From Phaeocystidibacter marisrubri (GTDB taxonomy: Bacteria > Bacteroidota > Bacteroidia > Flavobacteriales > Schleiferiaceae): a DNA stretch of 64,000 bases. Below, one piece after another: positions 1 to 9,227 of the stretch. The DNA is taken from assembly GCF_008933165.1 (NCBI RefSeq), contig NZ_WBVQ01000001.1:62001-126000 (forward strand), written 5' to 3'. The first letter of the stretch is position 1. Every line of letters starts with the position of its first letter. A program made the position numbers and the translations under genes. The notes under the pieces are model-generated. The model was not told where the DNA came from. It ran no database searches and was given only the letters and a program-made list of their open reading frames with translations.

Positions 1-232
1 CGAGTTCAGGAATCTTGCGGATAACGTCACAGGTTTCAATGCCGTCCATTCCTGGCATCATTACATCTAATAAGATGAGGTGTGGACGATGTTTTTTGGC
101 TTTTTCAACAGCTTCTTCACCGTTGTTAGCCGTCTTTACTTTGAATCCTTCTTTTTCAAGGTTGTAGCCTACGAACTCTAGGATATCCGGTTCGTCATCC
201 ACTAAAAGGATCTTCATTTCACTTGTCTCCAT
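1..232 (-). CDS. Response regulator, PhoB/OmpR-like, receiver domain (3' end outside window)
   Basis: Only the N-terminal ~75 residues are present; the rest lies left of the window. The reading contains KILLVDDEPDILEF (acidic pocket DDE), LILLDVMMPGMDG (phosphoacceptor Asp) and the start of helix 4, so it is a CheY-like receiver domain. The output domain is not visible. The PhoB/OmpR assignment is inferred from the close match of the receiver to flavobacterial PhoB-type regulators and from the 11-bp repeats in the divergent promoter. Three in-frame ATG codons (256, 232, 217) are possible. The one at 232 (METSEMKILL) is chosen because homologues usually carry a few residues before KILLVDDEP; 217 is almost as likely. 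It diverges from the lipoprotein and TonB receptor genes, which it may control. Confidence 0.85.
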   Translation of the reverse strand, partial: METSEMKILLVDDEPDILEFVGYNLEKEGFKVKTANNGEEAVEKAKKHRPHLILLDVMMPGMDGIETCDVIRKIPEL

Positions 233-283: not shown

Positions 284-291
284 CAAAAATA
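284..291 (-). promoter_or_regulatory. Candidate -7 element for the response regulator gene
   Basis: On the minus strand this reads TATTTTTG, an exact match to the Bacteroidota -7 consensus TAnnTTTG. It lies 52 nt before the ATG at 232 and 28 nt before the ATG at 256. No TTTG-like -33 element is visible in the GC-rich stretch at 301-312, so activation may be needed. Confidence 0.45.
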
Positions 292-316: not shown

Positions 317-345
317 CTTAACAATTACATAACCAAAGGTTACAA
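317..345 (+). promoter_or_regulatory. Upstream cluster of 11-bp-phased Pho-box-like repeats
   Basis: CTTAACA at 317-323 is followed exactly 11 bp later by CATAACC (328-334), and 11 bp after that by the weaker GTTACAA (339-345). The spacing and core resemble PhoB/PhoP operators, which are direct repeats with 11-bp periodicity (TTAACA-like in Bacillus PhoP boxes). It lies between the divergent response regulator and lipoprotein genes and could serve either one. Confidence 0.45.
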
Positions 346-400
346 TAACTTCAAAAATACGCACAGTTCTTCACAATTAAGCTGTTTATCGCTACATAAC

Positions 401-446
401 CTTCAACCTGACTTAACAGGGGCTTAACCTTGCCGCTCAACCTTTG
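401..446 (+). promoter_or_regulatory. Pho-box-like triple repeat with adjoining -7 element
   Basis: Three copies sit in exact 11-bp register: CTTCAAC (401-407), CTTAACA (412-418) and CTTAACC (423-429). Nine bases downstream is AACCTTTG (439-446), matching TAnnTTTG at 7 of 8 positions. Direct repeats replacing the upstream promoter element, about 10 bp before the -7/-10 box, is the classic arrangement of a PhoB-activated promoter. It would drive the gene starting at 479 with a leader of about 25 nt. Confidence 0.55.
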
Positions 447-478: not shown

Positions 479-1750
479 ATGGACACTCTTAAAAAATTTA
501 GCAAAATCGCCCTTGCAGCTGTTGTAGCTGTTGGTATGGCTTCTTGTACTGAAGAAAAAGGTGGTGATGGCGGATCAAAACCAACCTCTAACGTAATCGT
601 TTCTGGTTTGATCAGCTCTAACACGACTTGGTCTTCTGATAACATCTACCAATTGGCTGGTCGCGTTGTAGTTGACGAGAATGTTACTCTAACTATCGAG
701 CCAGGTACAATCATTAAAGGTCAAACTGAAACTGGATCACTTGCATCTGTATTGATCATCTCACGTGGTGGTAAGATTGATGCGGAAGGTACTGCAGCTA
801 ATCCAATCATCTTCACTTCTTTGGATGACAACATCGAAAAAGGTCAGAGAGTGGGTACAAACCTTTCTCGCACTCAAAACGAGCTTTGGGGTGGTTTGAT
901 CATCTTGGGTAAAGCTCCGATCTCTGCTGAGAACGGTGACACTGAAACTAACATCGAAGGTCTTCCAGCTAACGAACCTTACGGTCTTTACGGTGGTACA
1001 GACGTAAATGACAACTCAGGTACTCTTAAGTATGTATCTGTTCGTCACGGTGGTACTACTATCGGTGAAGGAAACGAAATCAACGGTATCACTTTCGGTG
1101 GTGTTGGTGCAGGTACTGTAGTTGATCAGGTTGAAGTTTACGCTACACTTGACGATGGTATCGAATGTTTCGGTGGTTCTGTAAACATCAACAATGCTCT
1201 TATCTACTTCCAAGGTGATGATGGTGTTGACTTGGATATGAACTACTCTGGTACTTTCACAAACTTCGCTGTAATTCATGGTGATGGAATCGGTACGGAT
1301 GAAGGTTTGGAAATTGACGGTCCTGAGAACTCAACGTATACTAACGGTATGTTCTCTTTGGTAAACGGTACAGTTACAGCACTTGGTAACGACGGATCAC
1401 CTGCTGACCTTAAGTCTAAAGCTCAAGGTACAATCACAAACGTGAAGTTCTCTTACCCTGACGGTGCTACTTTGAAAGTACGCGCTTCTTACCAAAACGA
1501 TTGTGCAGATTCTAAGACTGACGCATTCACTCACTTGACTGACGCAACTCCAACTTTGGTAATTGCTGGTTCTGAGTTTGACGGTGGAGTATCTGTATAC
1601 ACAGGTTCTACTGATAACAACGACGTAGACTGTACAGTTCCTGCTGTTGACCAAACTGCTGCTGAAGCTGTAGTGGTTTCAACTACTGCAACAGGTGCTG
1701 ATATGTCAGTATGGTCTTGGACTTGTGCTTCTGAAAGAGGTGAGCTTTAA
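479..1750 (+). CDS. Surface lipoprotein with predicted right-handed beta-helix
   Basis: The N-terminus has a basic start, a hydrophobic stretch and a lipobox (GMASC, Cys at about 23), so it is probably a lipoprotein; an acidic/Gly-rich linker follows. The remaining ~390 residues are Gly-, Asn- and Thr-rich with regularly spaced hydrophobics (for example the LTIEPGTIIKG and GGLIILGKAP motifs), as in the Bacteroidota family of parallel beta-helix secreted proteins that are often misnamed multidrug transporters. No catalytic residues are recognised. No T9SS tail is seen. The TonB-dependent receptor gene follows directly, and such pairs usually act together at the outer membrane, with the lipoprotein capturing or handling substrate. 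The 11-bp repeats upstream suggest induction by phosphate limitation; the substrate itself is unknown. Confidence 0.8.
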   Translation: MDTLKKFSKIALAAVVAVGMASCTEEKGGDGGSKPTSNVIVSGLISSNTTWSSDNIYQLAGRVVVDENVTLTIEPGTIIKGQTETGSLASVLIISRGGKIDAEGTAANPIIFTSLDDNIEKGQRVGTNLSRTQNELWGGLIILGKAPISAENGDTETNIEGLPANEPYGLYGGTDVNDNSGTLKYVSVRHGGTTIGEGNEINGITFGGVGAGTVVDQVEVYATLDDGIECFGGSVNINNALIYFQGDDGVDLDMNYSGTFTNFAVIHGDGIGTDEGLEIDGPENSTYTNGMFSLVNGTVTALGNDGSPADLKSKAQGTITNVKFSYPDGATLKVRASYQNDCADSKTDAFTHLTDATPTLVIAGSEFDGGVSVYTGSTDNNDVDCTVPAVDQTAAEAVVVSTTATGADMSVWSWTCASERGEL

Positions 1751-1818: not shown

Positions 1819-1832
1819 ATAAAATGTGCGGA

Positions 1833-4643
1833 ATGAAGAAGACAATTTTCACTTCACTTTTTGTTCTTATCGGACTTGCTGCCTTTGCCCAAACGGGTCT
1901 ATTACGCGGTACTATTATCGATAAGCAATATGGAGAGCCAGCTATCAACGCCTTGATTAAGGTTGAAGGTACAAGCATCCAAGGACTCACTGATTTTGAC
2001 GGAAATTACTCCGTAACGGTTCCTGTTGGAACCTACACTGTTCGTGTTTCTTCTTTTGGTTATTCTGATTTCGTTGTAAGCGGAGTGACCATTACCGAAG
2101 GAAAAGTGACCATTCAAGATGGTGTTCTAGAACCCGCCAGCGAAGTCATCGGTGAAATCACCATTACGGCTCAAGCTTCTCGCAACAGCGAAGCGGGGAT
2201 TATGATTCAAAGAAAGAACGCGTCTAACGTAATGGATGGTCTTTCTTCTCAATCATTCCGTCGCGTGGGTGACGGTAACTTGAGTGCTGCTATTGGTCGT
2301 GTAACCGGAGTTTCGGTTCAAGATGGCAAGTATGTTTACGTTCGTGGTCTAGGTGATCGCTACACGAAAACAACGCTAAATGGAATGACTATTCCAGGTC
2401 TTGACCCTGACAAGAACGCGGTTCAAATCGACATCTTCCCTACGAAAACACTCGAGAACGTAATGATCTACAAAACGTTCTCTTCTAATTTATACGGTGA
2501 TTTTACCGGTGGTCTGGTAAACGTGGAAACCAAATCGTTCCCAGAGCACGCTACAACCCAACTTAGTGTTGGTGCTACGTATATCCCAACCATGCACTTC
2601 AACAATGACTTCATTCTTTACGATGGAGGTTCATTCGATTGGGCTGGTTTTGATGATGGTGGTCGATCTTTTCCTATGAGCAAGTTTGAGCGTGTTCCGG
2701 CTGCTCCGAACGCGACATCTACCGAACTAACACGTGGGTTTGGAAAGCAAATGGCCGCTCAATCAGCTACGGCGATTCCAAATATGAGCATCAGCTTCAA
2801 TACTGGGGATCAGATCAATTCGGAAAGTGGTCGTACTTACGGCTATAACTTTGTTGTGAATTACCAGCTTCAGAATACTTTCTACGAGGATTATGAAAGC
2901 AATACATACCTGAAGCCGATCGGGAATACCGATACGGAGCTGTTCCGCGATGAGCGCCGTGTAGGTGCTTTGGGTCAGCGTACAGCACAATGGAGTGCTT
3001 TGGGGTCAGGTGCTATGAAGTGGAACACAAACTCTCTTGAGTTGCTTGTTCTTCACTCTCAAAGCGGTGAATCTTCTGCGGCTCGTCGTACGGCACAGAA
3101 CTACAATCAAACAGGAGCAACACTTCTTGAGGACATTCTTACCTACAGTCAGCGTTCTCTCACCACCGCCATGGTTATTGGCAAGCACAAGGTGGGTGAT
3201 TGGAACTTGGAGTGGAACAATGCATTCACAAAGTCGCGCGTGTACGATCCAGATTTCCGTACAACTTCCATTTCTATTACTGGAGGTGATACCAGCTTGA
3301 GCGTAGGTAACGGAGCGGGGATCAACCGCTTCTGGAGAGATTTGAACGAATGGAACGAAAGTGCTCGTCTTGATCTTTCCAAGAACTGGGGAGAAACAGG
3401 CAAGTTGAGCTTCGGTGGAGTAGTTGTGTTGAAGAGTCGTGATTTTGAGATCTTGAACACCAACTTCCGAAGAGGAAATACTTCGGACATTGACGTGAAT
3501 CCGGATTGGTTCTTTGAGGACGAGAACATTTACTCTGCTTCTAACCCTGATGGTACATATGTACGTTACAACTACGAGGCATCGAACTCATTTACTTCGG
3601 GTCAGCAAGTGTACGCTGGTTACATCCAGAATGAGCACAATGTTCTTCTTCGCTTGAAGTTGATCTATGGATTACGTGTTGAGCAAGCAATGATGACCTA
3701 CACTGGGGAAACACAGCCAGGTCCATCTTACGAAGTATACGATAAAGCAGAAACCTTGAATGAACTCAACTTCCTTCCAAGCTTTGCTGCTATCTACGAC
3801 TTGAACGAAAGCATGAAATTGCGTGCTTCTTATGGTCGCACATTGGCCCGTCCATCCTTTAAGGAGAAATCAGCTGCACAGATCTTCGACCCAATTTCTA
3901 AGCGTACATTCATCGGTAACTTGGATTTGGAGCAAACAACAGTGAACAACTTCGACCTTCGTTACGAATGGTTCTTTGAAGGTGCAGACGTATTTGCAGT
4001 TTCAGGTTTCTACAAGAACTTCACCAACCACATTGAGATGGTGTCTTATCAAACAGCTCCAGACAACTTGAGTCCACGCAATGCTGGAAGTTCAACTGTA
4101 TTTGGTGCAGAAATAGAATTGAGCAAGTCGCTTGCATCTCTTGGTGGTTTCTTTGAGAAATTGAAAGTTGGAGGTAACTTCTCATACGTTGAATCTCGCG
4201 TAGATCTTCACAGTGTAATTGTAGACGACAATGGTACTACTGAGTACGAATTGCGTCAGCAATACTTGAGAGATGGTGAAGAATTGAAGGACTACCGCTC
4301 AATGGCAGGTCAGGCTCCTTACACATTTAACTTCAACTTGAACTACGGCGATCCTGAAACGGGAACCAACGTGAGTGTTGCTTACAACGTTCAAGGTACT
4401 TTCCTTGCGATTGTAGGTTCAGGCCGCGTGCCAGATGTATACACAGTGCCATTCAACAGTTTGAATGTGAATGCCTACAAAGACTTTGGTTCTGAAAGAC
4501 AGCACCGCATCACTTTGGGTGTTCAGAACGCATTGGACGGCGAGAGACATAATGTTTATCGCTCATTTGGTGCGCAAGACGAAACGTATTCGCGTTACAA
4601 GCCAGGGGTTGGTGTTACTGTGAAATATTCATACACCTTCTAA
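1833..4643 (+). CDS. TonB-dependent outer-membrane receptor with CarboxypepD_reg-like N-domain
   Basis: Starting at 1833 gives a clean signal peptide (MKKTIFTSLFVLIGLAAFAQ); the ATG at 1824 only adds MCG. Residues ~20-110 form a carboxypeptidase-regulatory-like beta-sandwich (GTIIDKQYGEPAINALIKVEGT). The plug domain follows (SNVMDGLSSQSF, then GRVTGVSVQDGKYVYVRGLG, typical of a plug), and then a beta-barrel of about 700 residues. The protein ends with aromatic YSYTF, as expected for an outer-membrane barrel. It imports a ligand through the outer membrane using TonB energy. It lies downstream of the beta-helix lipoprotein and after a hairpin. The substrate cannot be read from sequence; phosphate-containing compounds are an inference from the upstream Pho-like boxes only. 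Confidence 0.92.
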   Translation: MKKTIFTSLFVLIGLAAFAQTGLLRGTIIDKQYGEPAINALIKVEGTSIQGLTDFDGNYSVTVPVGTYTVRVSSFGYSDFVVSGVTITEGKVTIQDGVLEPASEVIGEITITAQASRNSEAGIMIQRKNASNVMDGLSSQSFRRVGDGNLSAAIGRVTGVSVQDGKYVYVRGLGDRYTKTTLNGMTIPGLDPDKNAVQIDIFPTKTLENVMIYKTFSSNLYGDFTGGLVNVETKSFPEHATTQLSVGATYIPTMHFNNDFILYDGGSFDWAGFDDGGRSFPMSKFERVPAAPNATSTELTRGFGKQMAAQSATAIPNMSISFNTGDQINSESGRTYGYNFVVNYQLQNTFYEDYESNTYLKPIGNTDTELFRDERRVGALGQRTAQWSALGSGAMKWNTNSLELLVLHSQSGESSAARRTAQNYNQTGATLLEDILTYSQRSLTTAMVIGKHKVGDWNLEWNNAFTKSRVYDPDFRTTSISITGGDTSLSVGNGAGINRFWRDLNEWNESARLDLSKNWGETGKLSFGGVVVLKSRDFEILNTNFRRGNTSDIDVNPDWFFEDENIYSASNPDGTYVRYNYEASNSFTSGQQVYAGYIQNEHNVLLRLKLIYGLRVEQAMMTYTGETQPGPSYEVYDKAETLNELNFLPSFAAIYDLNESMKLRASYGRTLARPSFKEKSAAQIFDPISKRTFIGNLDLEQTTVNNFDLRYEWFFEGADVFAVSGFYKNFTNHIEMVSYQTAPDNLSPRNAGSSTVFGAEIELSKSLASLGGFFEKLKVGGNFSYVESRVDLHSVIVDDNGTTEYELRQQYLRDGEELKDYRSMAGQAPYTFNFNLNYGDPETGTNVSVAYNVQGTFLAIVGSGRVPDVYTVPFNSLNVNAYKDFGSERQHRITLGVQNALDGERHNVYRSFGAQDETYSRYKPGVGVTVKYSYTF

Positions 4644-4771: not shown

Positions 4772-4779
4772 TACATTTG
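4772..4779 (+). promoter_or_regulatory. Bacteroidota -7 element for the large T9SS gene
   Basis: TACATTTG matches TAnnTTTG exactly. It overlaps a possible GTG start at 4779, so that codon cannot lie on this transcript; this favours the ATG at 4803. The -33 region (GTTC at 4753) is only a partial match. Two weak CTTAACA-like half sites 11 bp apart (4723 and 4734) lie further up. Confidence 0.55.
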
Positions 4780-4802
4780 TGGGGCATCATAAAAACCAAC
4801 TG

Positions 4803-7800
4803 ATGAGGAAGTTAATTACTCTTTTCACGGTTTGCCTTGGCTTAACGGCTGTAGGACAAACCTCACACACCGTCAACGTGGGCGGTAGCGGAGCAAGTTT
4901 TGCTCCATCTTCACTTGTGATCAATGCAGGTGATACTGTCTATTGGGATTGTACAGGAGGAACGCATAATGTTGACGGAACATTGGCAACTTATCCTAAC
5001 AATCCGGTAGGATTTGGAAATGGGGCTGCTGCTTCATCTCCTTGGAGTTACTGGTTCGTTTTCAATACGGCTGGTACGTATAGCTACGAATGTACTCCTC
5101 ATGCAGGAGGTGGTATGACCGGAACAATTACTGTTAATTCAAACCCTCTAACTGGATTAGTTAGTCAGAGTTTTGAAGGTTCAGATTCTTGGACCTATTC
5201 GATTTCTCCAGCTACTTATAACACTAGTGGAGACGTTTGGGCAACAGTTTCTTCATTGAGCTCTATCTCTCCTTCTGCGGGATCTAGCTTCTGGGGTATT
5301 CAAGATTTGAACAACCCAAATGGTGGTGGAGCATTTGTTCACACGATGGATTTTGACGTTGTAGACATTTCAGGTATTTCAAACGTATATCTTGAATTTG
5401 ATTACAGTACCATTGGGTTTGATGGGCCAGATTCAATTGGCTACGTAATTGAAACCAATAATGGAACCACTTGGGGGCCGCTATCACAACTTGATAAGAA
5501 TACTGGAGGCTCTTGGTCTACTGTTTCTCACAAATTGCCTGCCGGTACTCAGTATGTTCGCCTTCGTATTCTTGCAGCTCAAGATGGAGGTGGCGACTAC
5601 GCAGGAATTGACAACGTACAATTGGTACAAGGCCCTGCTTATCCACTTGAAGATATTTCAGCGCTTACTCCACTAGATGCGAACAACGTTCCAACTCGTG
5701 ATGGTGATACGGTATACATTCAAGGTACTGTATTTACTATTGATTACGACGGAAACGCTGGTTACAGCTTCTACATCCATGACGGTACAGACGGAATTAA
5801 CGTTTACCGTTCTTCAGACTATGGAACGTACACGAACCCAATGATGGGTGACCAAGTTGAAGTATTGGGTCGTGTTGATTTTTACAATGGTCTGACTGAA
5901 ATTCTCGTTGACTCCATCTACCTTGTGAGTGGTGGAAACGCTATTCAAGCTCCGACCGTAGTTACAACTCTTGATGAGACTACTGAAAGTGAATTGATTC
6001 GTATGAACGGAATGACCTTGGTTAGCCCTTCTCAATGGGGTTCAGGTTCATTCAACGTTGATATCACAGACGGTACCAACACATTCACTATGCGTATTGA
6101 TAGCGATTGTGACTTGAGCGGAACTCCTGCTCCAGTGGGTACATTCGATGTAATTGGTGTTGGTAGTCAATATGACAACAGCTCGCCGTATACTTCAGGA
6201 TACCAAGTATTCCCTCGTATTATTGAAGATATCGCTTATGTAACAGCTACATTGGACACTTTGTCTGCAGTAGATGCAAATGGAGTGGCTGTTCACGATG
6301 GTGATTCTGCACTTATTTCTGGTGTTGTGTTCACTGTTGATTACGACGGCAACGCGGGTTACTCTTTCTACATTAAAGACGCAACAAGCGGAATCAATAT
6401 TTACCGTTCTTCAGATGTTTCTGGTTATCAAGTTGCTTTGGGTGACTCTATCCGAGTTTGGGGTGTAGTTGATCAATACAATGGCTTAACTGAATTTGTC
6501 CCAGATAGCATTCAATTGATGAAAACGGGTGTTGACTTTGGTGCACCAATGACGGTTACTTCTCTTGGTGAAACAGAAGAAAGTGAATTCATCCGCATCA
6601 ACAACCTTACTCTTGTAACGCCTTCTCAGTGGGTTACTTCGGGTTCATCTTTCAACGTAGATGTAACAGACGGTACCAATACATACACAATGCGTATTGA
6701 TAGCGATGTGAATATCGCAGGTACTGCTGCTCCAGTTGGATCATTTGACGTTATTGGTGTAGGTAGCCAGTTTGATAACAGCTCACCATACACTTCAGGA
6801 TACCAAATCTTACCGCGCTTCACGCAAGACATCATCGCTTCTGGTGCTGTTCGTGCTATTGAGCCAATTGCTAGTGTTGATGTTTCTGATGCAACAGGAT
6901 TCCCGACTCGTGACGGAGATACCGTTGCTATCCGTGGGGTTGTTTACTCTATCGATTTTGACGGTAACGCAGGTTACAGCTTCTACATGCAAGATGCAAC
7001 AGGCGGTATAAACGTCTACAGAAGTTCCGATCTTCCTAACTACACTTCTCCAATGAAAGGTGATAGCCTTGAGATTGTAGGTACGGTTGATTTCTTCAAT
7101 GGTTTGATTGAAGTTGCTCCAGACACAATCATCGTATTGGGAACAGGTGCAGCAGTGGCAGCTCCAACAGTTCACACAAACCTTGGAGAGTACAACGAAG
7201 GTGACTTTGTTCGCGTAAATGGATTGACTTTGGTTACACCTTCACAATGGGCGTCCTCAGGTTCATTCAACGTGGATGTAACGGACGGTACAAATACTTT
7301 CCAACTTCGTGTTGACAGTGATGCAAACTTTGGTTCATTCCCTGCGCCAACCGGTATGTTCGACGCAATTGGTGCTGTTGGTCAGTACGACAATAGCTCC
7401 CCATACCTTTCAGGTTACCAGTTGTTTCCACGTGATACAAACGACATCATTCCAGCGGTTGCAACTACACCAACAGTAAACTTTGTAAGCAACAGTGTTT
7501 CTGCCCTTGAAAGTGCAGGTACAATTGATGTGAAACTTTACATTGCTCCAACAGCATCTACTTCAGAAACAGTTGACCTTGTGTTCACAATCGGGCCAGG
7601 CGTAACACTTCCAGGTGATGGAATGATTACTCCAACTCCAAACTTGACTACAGGTGCATTGACGATGACTGTTCCTGCTAACGGTGATACCATTTCATTC
7701 GCAGTATCTATTGTTGATGATGCATTGACAGAGAACGATGAGTGGTTTGACGTTGTAATTTCAGGCGCATCTAGTGGCTTGACGGTTGGTGCTATCGACA

Positions 7801-9227
7801 GCATGCGATTTACTGTAATCGACAACGATGTTGTGATTCCTACTTACACTATTGATCAGATTGATGGTCGTGATGCAAACTGTGCGATCGACTCATCTTT
7901 GCTTTATGTGAAACTGAATGCAGTTGTAATGGGTGTTGACCTTCAAGGTGCAACGTCAAGCAACAGTGCATTTACCATTTGGGACGGTGAAGGTTTCGGT
8001 GTATTTGCTGGAGGTTTGAACTTCACAGTTACAGAAGGTGATTCAATTCGTGTGATTGGTGAACTAGACGAGTACAATGGTTTGGCTCAGATTTATGCCG
8101 ACTCAATCGTTGTGATCAAGTCAGGTTCAACTCTTCCTACTCCAATGGTGATTACTTCACTTGACGAGACAACAGAATCTGAATTGGTTCGCTTCAACAA
8201 TGCAACCTTAGTTGACCCAACCCAATGGGGTAGCGGTTCATCTGGTTTCAACGTTGATATCACCAACGGTACAGATACTATCACCATGCGTGTAGATGCT
8301 GACGTAGCTGACGTTTATGCTATGCCTGCTCCAATCGGTACGTTTGATGTGATTGGTATTGGTGGTCAGTTTGACAACAGCGCTCCACGTTGTGAAGGTT
8401 ACCAGTTGTTGCCACGTTACATGGCAGACATCATCCTTCCAGAGCCACCAACTTACGATCTTCACATTTCTGAAGTGATGGCGAACAGTAATGACGCTAA
8501 TGGTTTGAATCAAGATTGGTTTGAAATCACGAACTACTCTACTACAGAGACGTACAACCTTGCGAACTTCTCATTTGATGATAACAGCGAGATTGATGGT
8601 TTGAATGTATTCCCAAGTGTGACTATCGCACCAGGTGAGGCAATCGTAGTTTGGGAAGGTAATGCTGCAGATGAGGCTAGCTTCATCGCCAACTGGAACA
8701 TCGTAAACGGTGCTCCACAAATCATCTCTGTAGATGAATTGACCAACGGTTCATTCCCAGGCTTGAGCTCATCTAGTGATGCGGTTGTATTGTACGATAG
8801 TAGCTCGAATGTAATCGAGATTTGTAAAGTAGAATACACCAGTACCATTGCAGGTTTCGCACTTGAGTTTGACACTGCTTGTGCCTTCTCTGCCTTCGCA
8901 GTGGACGGAGTGAACGGTGCCCATACAGCAAACGGTGGTGATATCGGTTCTCCGGGTAATGTTGCTCCAGGCATCGGCTTGAGTGAGGCTAACTTGGCAA
9001 ACGTTCGTGTATTCCCTAACCCAACTGCAGGTTTGGTAAACATTGAGTTGCCGTTCGAAGGAGCGAAAGACATCCGTGTGATGGATATCCGCGGTGCTGT
9101 CCTTTCAGTTGAGTCTACTCGCGAGTCTAGACTTCAGCTTGACCTTACACAGTTTGATGCAGGTGTTTACATGCTTCAGATTTCTACAGGAGACGCTCAC
9201 CGCGTAGTTCGCGTGATTCTTCAATAA
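4803..9227 (+). CDS. Very large T9SS cargo protein: cupredoxin, OB-fold repeats, Calx-beta, lamin-tail domain
   Basis: The protein has 1474 residues from ATG 4803 (signal peptide MRKLITLFTVCLGLTAVGQ). In order: a plastocyanin-like cupredoxin domain (~20-115) with ligand-like THNVDG and YECTPHAGGGM (His, Cys, His, Met); a MAM/jelly-roll-like region (~120-275); three tandem ~200-residue OB-fold-like repeats (DGDTVYIQG, YDGNAGYSFYI, FNVDVTDGTNT; ~282-885); a Calx-beta domain (~889-1014); a fourth, more diverged OB repeat (~1015-1218); a lamin-tail domain (LHISEVMANS; ~1220-1390); and a type-A sorting domain (RVFPNPTAGLVNIELP to GVYMLQIS). It is therefore probably secreted and attached to the cell surface. 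OB-fold plus lamin-tail combinations are common in secreted nuclease-associated proteins, but no nuclease catalytic domain is visible. It has its own promoter and terminator. Confidence 0.88.
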   Translation: MRKLITLFTVCLGLTAVGQTSHTVNVGGSGASFAPSSLVINAGDTVYWDCTGGTHNVDGTLATYPNNPVGFGNGAAASSPWSYWFVFNTAGTYSYECTPHAGGGMTGTITVNSNPLTGLVSQSFEGSDSWTYSISPATYNTSGDVWATVSSLSSISPSAGSSFWGIQDLNNPNGGGAFVHTMDFDVVDISGISNVYLEFDYSTIGFDGPDSIGYVIETNNGTTWGPLSQLDKNTGGSWSTVSHKLPAGTQYVRLRILAAQDGGGDYAGIDNVQLVQGPAYPLEDISALTPLDANNVPTRDGDTVYIQGTVFTIDYDGNAGYSFYIHDGTDGINVYRSSDYGTYTNPMMGDQVEVLGRVDFYNGLTEILVDSIYLVSGGNAIQAPTVVTTLDETTESELIRMNGMTLVSPSQWGSGSFNVDITDGTNTFTMRIDSDCDLSGTPAPVGTFDVIGVGSQYDNSSPYTSGYQVFPRIIEDIAYVTATLDTLSAVDANGVAVHDGDSALISGVVFTVDYDGNAGYSFYIKDATSGINIYRSSDVSGYQVALGDSIRVWGVVDQYNGLTEFVPDSIQLMKTGVDFGAPMTVTSLGETEESEFIRINNLTLVTPSQWVTSGSSFNVDVTDGTNTYTMRIDSDVNIAGTAAPVGSFDVIGVGSQFDNSSPYTSGYQILPRFTQDIIASGAVRAIEPIASVDVSDATGFPTRDGDTVAIRGVVYSIDFDGNAGYSFYMQDATGGINVYRSSDLPNYTSPMKGDSLEIVGTVDFFNGLIEVAPDTIIVLGTGAAVAAPTVHTNLGEYNEGDFVRVNGLTLVTPSQWASSGSFNVDVTDGTNTFQLRVDSDANFGSFPAPTGMFDAIGAVGQYDNSSPYLSGYQLFPRDTNDIIPAVATTPTVNFVSNSVSALESAGTIDVKLYIAPTASTSETVDLVFTIGPGVTLPGDGMITPTPNLTTGALTMTVPANGDTISFAVSIVDDALTENDEWFDVVISGASSGLTVGAIDSMRFTVIDNDVVIPTYTIDQIDGRDANCAIDSSLLYVKLNAVVMGVDLQGATSSNSAFTIWDGEGFGVFAGGLNFTVTEGDSIRVIGELDEYNGLAQIYADSIVVIKSGSTLPTPMVITSLDETTESELVRFNNATLVDPTQWGSGSSGFNVDITNGTDTITMRVDADVADVYAMPAPIGTFDVIGIGGQFDNSAPRCEGYQLLPRYMADIILPEPPTYDLHISEVMANSNDANGLNQDWFEITNYSTTETYNLANFSFDDNSEIDGLNVFPSVTIAPGEAIVVWEGNAADEASFIANWNIVNGAPQIISVDELTNGSFPGLSSSSDAVVLYDSSSNVIEICKVEYTSTIAGFALEFDTACAFSAFAVDGVNGAHTANGGDIGSPGNVAPGIGLSEANLANVRVFPNPTAGLVNIELPFEGAKDIRVMDIRGAVLSVESTRESRLQLDLTQFDAGVYMLQISTGDAHRVVRVILQ
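5650..8440 (+). repeat. Four in-gene repeats of about 600 nt encoding OB-like modules
   Basis: Modules begin near 5650, 6240, 6850 and 7845. The first three keep near-identical nucleotide blocks such as GGTTACAGCTTCTACAT (5760 and 6973 regions), which indicates recent internal duplication. The fourth is separated from them by the Calx-beta domain and has diverged. Confidence 0.8.

Follow-up and report, generated by a model that had tools for sequence, protein, structure and literature searches.

Gene content of the locus

The window analysed here is a stretch of 64,000 nucleotides (G000:C1:62001-126000) from the Phaeocystidibacter marisrubri genome, which comprises 3.35 Mb in 22 contigs. Close to its left edge a phoB-like regulator gene and a lipoprotein gene are transcribed away from each other, with a TonB-dependent receptor (TBDT) gene behind the latter and a phoR-like kinase gene adjoining the former (Table 1). 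Completed beyond the window edge, the regulator gene becomes a 246-aa ORF, with its more likely start at METSEMK (window position 232), and encodes a receiver domain (PF00072) followed by an OmpR-type winged helix (Trans_reg_C, PF00486). The top two of its 101 NCBIfam matches are PhoB models, scoring 225.4 (cut-off 296.2) and 223.7 (cut-off 270), and the third is MtrA with 204.7 bits; all three scores are below the curated cut-offs, and because this holds for the PhoB equivalogs we call the regulator PhoB-like. For the kinase the best models are PnpS (266.7 bits) and phoR_proteo (242.3 bits), with WalK (236.5 bits) close behind the PhoR model, again all below cut-off. These assignments bear out a preliminary description of this DNA, which had recognised a PhoB-like receiver gene and had looked to an OmpR-type output domain and an adjacent phoR to secure it; the regulator is of OmpR type, with PhoB models best, rather than of another family. 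Two further Trans_reg_C matches, indicative of OmpR-type regulators, are found elsewhere in the same genome. Beyond the kinase, and convergent with phoR, is a glycosyltransferase gene (L010:9401-10528) with Glyco_trans_1_3 and PF04101 matches, possibly concerned with lipid remodelling.

The lipoprotein matches no Pfam or NCBIfam model. Its AlphaFold model (pLDDT 79.8) finds a pectin methylesterase (5c1e; E 8.6e-4, TM 0.30) as its best Foldseek match and the sole one under 0.001, and a search of the sequences of solved structures with the alignment of the lipoprotein gave nothing at E 1. As a query it is matched in 76 of 99 genomes, its own included, some of the matches being partial or weak. 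The divergent phoB-lipoprotein arrangement is found in relatives, usually with a TBDT downstream where the retrieved stretch extends that far. In two relatives (L036 and L037) the lipoprotein sequence is doubled inside a single ORF of about 780 aa. On the 3′ side of the receptor, window positions 4779-9227 encode a T9SS-sorted protein of 1482 aa, in which a plastocyanin-like domain is accompanied by repeated DUF5689 and by lamin-tail domains.

Table 1. Features of the locus and the PiT gene. Positions are those of the window unless a contig or locus is named.
Feature	Position	Strand	Remarks
phoR-like kinase gene	G000:C1:60493-61539		adjoins phoB-like gene; HisKA/HATPase domains
phoB-like regulator gene, 5′ part	1..232	-	continues left to G000:C1:61546
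-7-like element, phoB promoter	284..291	-	CAAAAATA on +, TATTTTTG on -
Cluster 1	317..345	+	317 CTTAACA, 328 CATAACC, 339 GTTACAA; 11-bp repeats
Cluster 2, putative Pho box of lipoprotein promoter	401..428	+	401 CTTCAAC, 412 CTTAACA, 423 CTTAACC; triple 11-bp repeat
-7-like element, lipoprotein promoter	439..446	+	AACCTTTG; TTTG begins 14 bp past last repeat
Lipoprotein gene	479..1750	+	423 aa; predicted beta-rich fold; divergent from phoB
TBDT gene	1824..4643	+	CarboxypepD_reg, plug, barrel
PiT transporter gene	L106:1501-3744 (G000:C1 from 157789)		747 aa; fused C-terminal domain, predicted PhoU fold

Repeats and promoter elements

The preliminary description had placed two clusters of heptamers, in exact 11-bp register, between the PhoB-like gene and the lipoprotein-receptor pair. 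The gene coordinates confirm this placement, and the repeats have the positions and letters then given, GTTACAA at 339 being a weak copy. Promoters of the Bacteroidota carry a -7 element of the form TAnnTTTG, and elements resembling it are present toward both ends of the intergenic region. The distance from cluster 2 to the -7 box, previously put at about 9 bp, is a gap of 10 bases (428 to 439). Cluster 1 is located upstream of the -7 element of phoB, with its repeats pointing toward the lipoprotein gene.

Taken as a single sequence, the region shows the repeats weakly, and it is the comparison across relatives that settles that they exceed chance. CTTAAC-N5-CTTAAC with ≤2 mismatches occurs 4 times in the window, compared with 4.39 expected. 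Three of these 4 matches are inside the 246-bp intergenic region. When that region was shuffled 2000 times, 0 of the shuffles had ≥3, a test that is post hoc because the motif was taken from the same sequence. A motif-free measure of self-similarity was not significant for the intergenic region, the observed value being reached by 85 of 1000 shuffles.

Conservation among relatives

The first set of lipoprotein loci consisted of 36 kept from 50, each with a divergent phoB (>55% identity and >150 bits) and sufficient upstream sequence; at locus L064 phoB is about 0.9 kb away from the lipoprotein. Here and below, loci counted over relatives are kin and not independent samples. The CTTAAC-N5-CTTAAC dimer (≤2 mismatches) is present at 28 of the 36, the P. 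marisrubri locus included, and absent from 8, whereas 300 dinucleotide shuffles have it at 0.63 loci on average and never at more than 4. At the remaining periods between 6 and 21 there are 1 to 10 dimers, and at the harmonic period 22 there are 15; with similar sequences removed, 21 of the 28 loci that are left have the dimer. In 23 of the 28 dimer-bearing loci it ends exactly 14 bp before TTTG, in agreement with the PhoB/PhoP activation geometry that had been suggested for the putative box. An alignment of 17 phoB-linked loci has, in most rows, TTnAA-N5-nTTAA-N5-CTTAAC-A followed by cTTTGc, with varying spacers. It is because the 11-bp pitch and the fixed 14-bp distance to TTTG recur across relatives that we regard the arrangement as more than chance.

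Cluster 1 is likewise a conserved block in most of the 17 aligned loci. A TTAAC block is found in 29 of the 36, and in 22 of the 36 it stands 26-27 bp from the -7 element of phoB, both counts being without a shuffle control; the same applies to the relaxed CAAAnnTA-like pattern (TAnnTTTG on the other strand) found on the phoB side in 34 of 36 loci.

For a second set the best 80 were kept out of at least 570 relatives, titled mostly Flavobacteriia, Cytophagia, Saprospiria and Bacteroidales, with one from Verrucomicrobia; 65 were used, 14 having no clear lipobox start and 1 a short upstream region. For all 256 tetramers, pairs at 11 bp were set against the mean at 8-10 and 12-14 bp. In these 65 of the best 80, TTAA gave 49 pairs compared with 3.7, and TAAC 42 compared with 1.7, with peaks again at 22 and 33 bp. 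The 65 loci cannot be taken as independent of the first relatives, since 4 of them overlap or nearly match; the 61 non-overlapping loci from the same best 80 gave 45 compared with 3.7 for TTAA and 37 compared with 1.7 for TAAC, and the 49 left after clustering gave 37 compared with 2.3 and 26 compared with 1.2. TTAA and TAAC were the top two tetramers in all three of these selections from the best 80.

As controls, 47 promoters were taken in a first set, in which 10 matched: 7 of moxR-like genes divergent from phoX, 2 of porin-like genes beside PiT (one of them, when checked, PF07396) and 1 of pstS. Because this reading of the 10, made on inspection, is post hoc, a second control set was assembled from the promoters of 67 neighbouring genes. 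It yielded 1 TTAA pair and 0 TAAC pairs at 11 bp, with no peak, and the dimer (≤2 mismatches) in 2 of the 67.

Recurrence at phosphate genes

The repeat recurs at phosphate genes. All 30 PiT loci were used, together with 13 of the 26 PhoX loci, the weaker half being left out; both sets include the P. marisrubri genes, and in both the excess of dimers peaks at period 11. The dimer (≤2 mismatches) occurs in 12 of 30 PiT promoters (shuffle mean 0.23, maximum 2; 18 have none) and in 8 of 13 PhoX promoters (mean 0.29, maximum 3; 5 have none), and with similar sequences removed in 10 of 26 and 8 of 13. The 14-bp spacing to TTTG, with 160 bp upstream taken, is seen in 4 of 6 dimer-bearing PhoX promoters and in only 2 of 12 dimer-bearing PiT promoters; neither the PiT nor the PhoX site of P. 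marisrubri has it. Dimers on the opposite strand, found in 5 of the 13 PhoX regions, are in keeping with a divergent moxR; the moxR gene of P. marisrubri (L136:3270-4268), divergent from phoX, has TTTAAC-N5-TTTAAC upstream, as have those of several relatives. For pstS-type genes, defined by PF12849, a family that also covers paralogues, 37 of 38 loci were usable (one had no start), most of them belonging to other families within the class. Their upstream regions gave 16 TTAA pairs at 11 bp compared with 1.3, and 5 TAAC pairs compared with 0.3, these again being the top two tetramers.

Raw genome-wide counts show no such enrichment, and positional tests were therefore used instead. With ≤1 mismatch the P. 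marisrubri genome has 9 motif sites compared with 59 for the reversed string: two are the clusters described above, one precedes PiT (PF01384) by 65 bp, one precedes the PhoX phosphatase gene (PF05787), 2 are intragenic and 3 have no evident link. Exact TTAAC-N6-TTAAC occurs at 7 sites in this genome, of which 2 belong to the lipoprotein and moxR genes and 5 have no clear phosphate link. Across 60 genomes exact CTTAAC-N5-CTTAAC is not enriched (25 sites compared with 60 for the reversed string). We judged 8 of the 25 to be phosphate-linked from their gene context: four at lipoprotein/phoB loci, two at a Na/Pi cotransporter gene (PF02690) and a nearby porin-like gene that has a pstS-type gene within about 6 kb, one on the divergent side of pstS, and one that precedes a similar gene some 3.4 kb away from pstS. 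Thus the scan that had been proposed for CTTAAC-N5-CTTAAC at phosphate genes found sites before the PiT and phoX genes of P. marisrubri but no genome-wide enrichment, and it is in the promoters of relatives that the 11-bp repeat is enriched at such genes.

Some exact sites have other neighbours, five more of the 25 being at genes that resemble TonB receptors. In relatives they stand before TonB-dependent receptor or SusC-like genes at L105, L088, L092, L103 and L094 (the receptors of L088, L103 and L094 recognised by inspection only), and these five receptor-like genes are candidates for further phosphorus uptake systems. The genes at L096 and L097 were considered as PiT-like and dropped; the L097 protein has no Pfam match. 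In P. marisrubri itself, an exact TTAAC-N6-TTAAC at G000:C2:538699-538714 (L272) falls between DUF1573-like and sensor-kinase-like genes, so named by inspection, near a second OmpR-type regulator.

Comparison with known Pho boxes and loci

Among the published boxes compared, the closest in sequence is the cyanobacterial SphR box CTTAACCT, which consists of 8 bp and a 3-bp linker in at least three tandem copies and precedes pst, phoA, sphX and nucH (PMC1906773); the likeness previously drawn to the TTAACA box of Gram-positive PhoP is corrected accordingly. The cyanobacterial box belongs to another phylum, however, and in the present case the unit often runs on as CTTAACA(T), is separated by 14 bp from the TTTG of the lipoprotein promoter and has a lipoprotein-TBDT pair behind it. 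With the E. coli PhoB box the repeats share direct repeat units of 11 nt and a position 10 bp before the -10 element (PMC1906773, PMC4415409), but the unit sequence is different and the E. coli element is a sigma-70 -10 rather than the -7 element of Bacteroidota.

The view that Pho boxes are poorly defined in Bacteroidota needs qualification, for a motif has already been published for a PhoP of the same order, Flavobacteriales. In Riemerella anatipestifer, DAP-seq of PhoP gave a motif in which TTTAACA is most conserved, and EMSA was reported for its own promoter, moxR and a TonB-receptor promoter; moxR is listed among the genes directly upregulated, and the authors report that PhoP regulates moxR-bat and influences survival of H2O2 (PMC9603813). 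We liken this PhoP to the present PhoB by its description. The motif is presented there as ArcA-like, the term 'direct repeat' is absent from the main text, and the account as available describes no pst or phoX box (PMC9603813). Searches of open-licence PMC papers turned up no Bacteroidota Pho-box consensus besides this one. For Bacteroides fragilis PhoB, EMSA has shown binding to the pstC promoter, the box sequence not being given in the text available (PMC3547664), and putative Pho boxes are marked, without sequence, in the plcP clusters of marine isolates (PMC4796936). Given the TTTAACA and CTTAACCT motifs, the repeat therefore has precedents in sequence; to these the present analysis adds how the repeat is placed in the promoter, its link with phosphate genes and how widely it is spread in Bacteroidota.

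By gene content the locus resembles the PhoBR cluster (PUSIV) of F. johnsoniae, where a pf04101 glycosyltransferase, PhoR, PhoB, a TBDT and the lipoprotein FII are likewise found together (PMC8115612). The encoding of a lipoprotein beside phoBR and a TBDT, a trait of the FII type, is found here too. For another such trait, a pectin-lyase-like beta-helix, the lone pectin methylesterase match of the present lipoprotein (TM 0.30) leaves the resemblance doubtful. Low phosphate in F. johnsoniae induced PhoB, the TBDT and FII with log2 fold changes of 3.06, 8.02 and 9.91 (PMC8115612). The arrangement differs in that, by locus tag, the F. johnsoniae TBDT is between phoB and the lipoprotein, and it carries pf14905; the word 'promoter' is absent from the main text of that paper (PMC8115612).

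Interpretation

We conclude that the repeats are, with high probability, Pho boxes of the PhoB-type regulator in a Bacteroidota phoBR-lipoprotein-TBDT locus. This reading draws on what the sequences show of the genes present, the pitch and conservation of the repeats, their geometry in the promoter and their return at phosphate genes: the elements are 11-bp direct repeats, they keep a fixed distance to the promoter (except at most PiT genes), and they are present at phosphate-uptake genes. The earlier proposal of a Pho regulon is thus largely supported, both by the identity of regulator and kinase and by recurrence at phosphate genes. From sequence we infer PhoB binding, the response to phosphate, the direction of regulation and the substrate as follows. 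Under low phosphate the PhoR-like kinase would phosphorylate PhoB, whose subunits could then sit head to tail on the 11-bp CTTAAC repeats of cluster 2. PhoB so bound would bring RNA polymerase to the -7 element and thereby turn on expression of the lipoprotein and of the TonB-dependent receptor, a pair that probably captures some phosphorus compound on the cell surface. Cluster 1 is probably a PhoB site at the phoB promoter, serving autoregulation; its repeats face the lipoprotein, so that the effect on phoB may be of either sign.

Could another OmpR-family regulator, and not the adjacent PhoB, bind these repeats? Direct repeats of the TTAAC type at 11 bp can suit several members of this family, two more Trans_reg_C proteins are predicted in the genome, one of them with TTAAC-N6-TTAAC nearby and beside a kinase-like gene, and the Riemerella PhoP motif has been compared to that of ArcA (PMC9603813). 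The recurrence of the repeat at PiT, PhoX and pstS-type genes, however, and its conserved linkage to phoB argue for PhoB itself, and we think a different regulator unlikely. The same recurrence bears on the idea that PhoB does bind, but governs a regulon mainly of envelope or redox stress in which phosphate genes are a subset. Such a regulon would account for the repeat at moxR and for the moxR-bat and H2O2 effects reported for Riemerella PhoP (PMC9603813), but it accords poorly with the repeats in PiT, PhoX and pstS-type promoters, and in F. johnsoniae the low-phosphate-induced loci of unknown function are reported to be repressed under N and Fe limitation (PMC8115612); we regard it as very improbable.

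A chance arrangement, or a general feature of AT-rich promoters, would be in keeping with the self-similarity value for this one region (reached by 85 of 1000 shuffles). It is contradicted by the comparative counts, which peak at period 11, by the fixed spacing to the promoter and by controls that stay flat, and we give it scarcely any credence.

If the repeats are indeed Pho boxes, they would provide a definition that can be used in Bacteroidota: nTTAACA-like units in tandem with a pitch of 11 bp, which at the promoter with the best conservation stand 14 bp ahead of TTTG. Such a definition would allow the Pho regulon to be predicted from sequence across this large phylum, and the motif would single out lipoprotein-TonB receptor pairs, so far uncharacterised, as probable systems for acquiring phosphorus.

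Phosphate sensing

How does PhoR sense phosphate in this family, given its apparent lack of Pst? A family search of the P. marisrubri genome found no PstS (PF12849), and a search of this one genome with the single model PF01895 found no separate PhoU. Over the class, 141 of 198 genomes have PstS-type proteins that score above the cut-off; for the family the figure is 0 of 37 genomes, 6 of which have weak matches below it.

The PiT transporter, with its fused C-terminal domain, may be relevant here. For this part of about 233 aa the structure prediction has a pLDDT of 89, and among the 16 best Foldseek rows the title is PhoU or PhoU-like in 15 and hypothetical protein in 1 (1sum); those under E 0.001 are 4q25 (2.2e-4) and 2i0m (5.4e-4), with TM 0.73 and 0.81. 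The Pfam PhoU model matches 2 of 22 PiT members (best 4.9e-5), and the sequence evidence for PhoU is weak because a Resolvase model scores equally well (also 2 members, 4.8e-5). As an explanation of sensing throughout the family the fusion is weakened by 5 of the 30 PiT genes, which have no extension; reading of ORF starts recognised no PhoU-like neighbour beside these five. We suggest, tentatively and as a somewhat doubtful possibility, that this lineage retains PhoBR and its CTTAAC boxes without PstSCAB-PhoU, and that a Pho-boxed PiT with a fused PhoU domain signals to PhoR.
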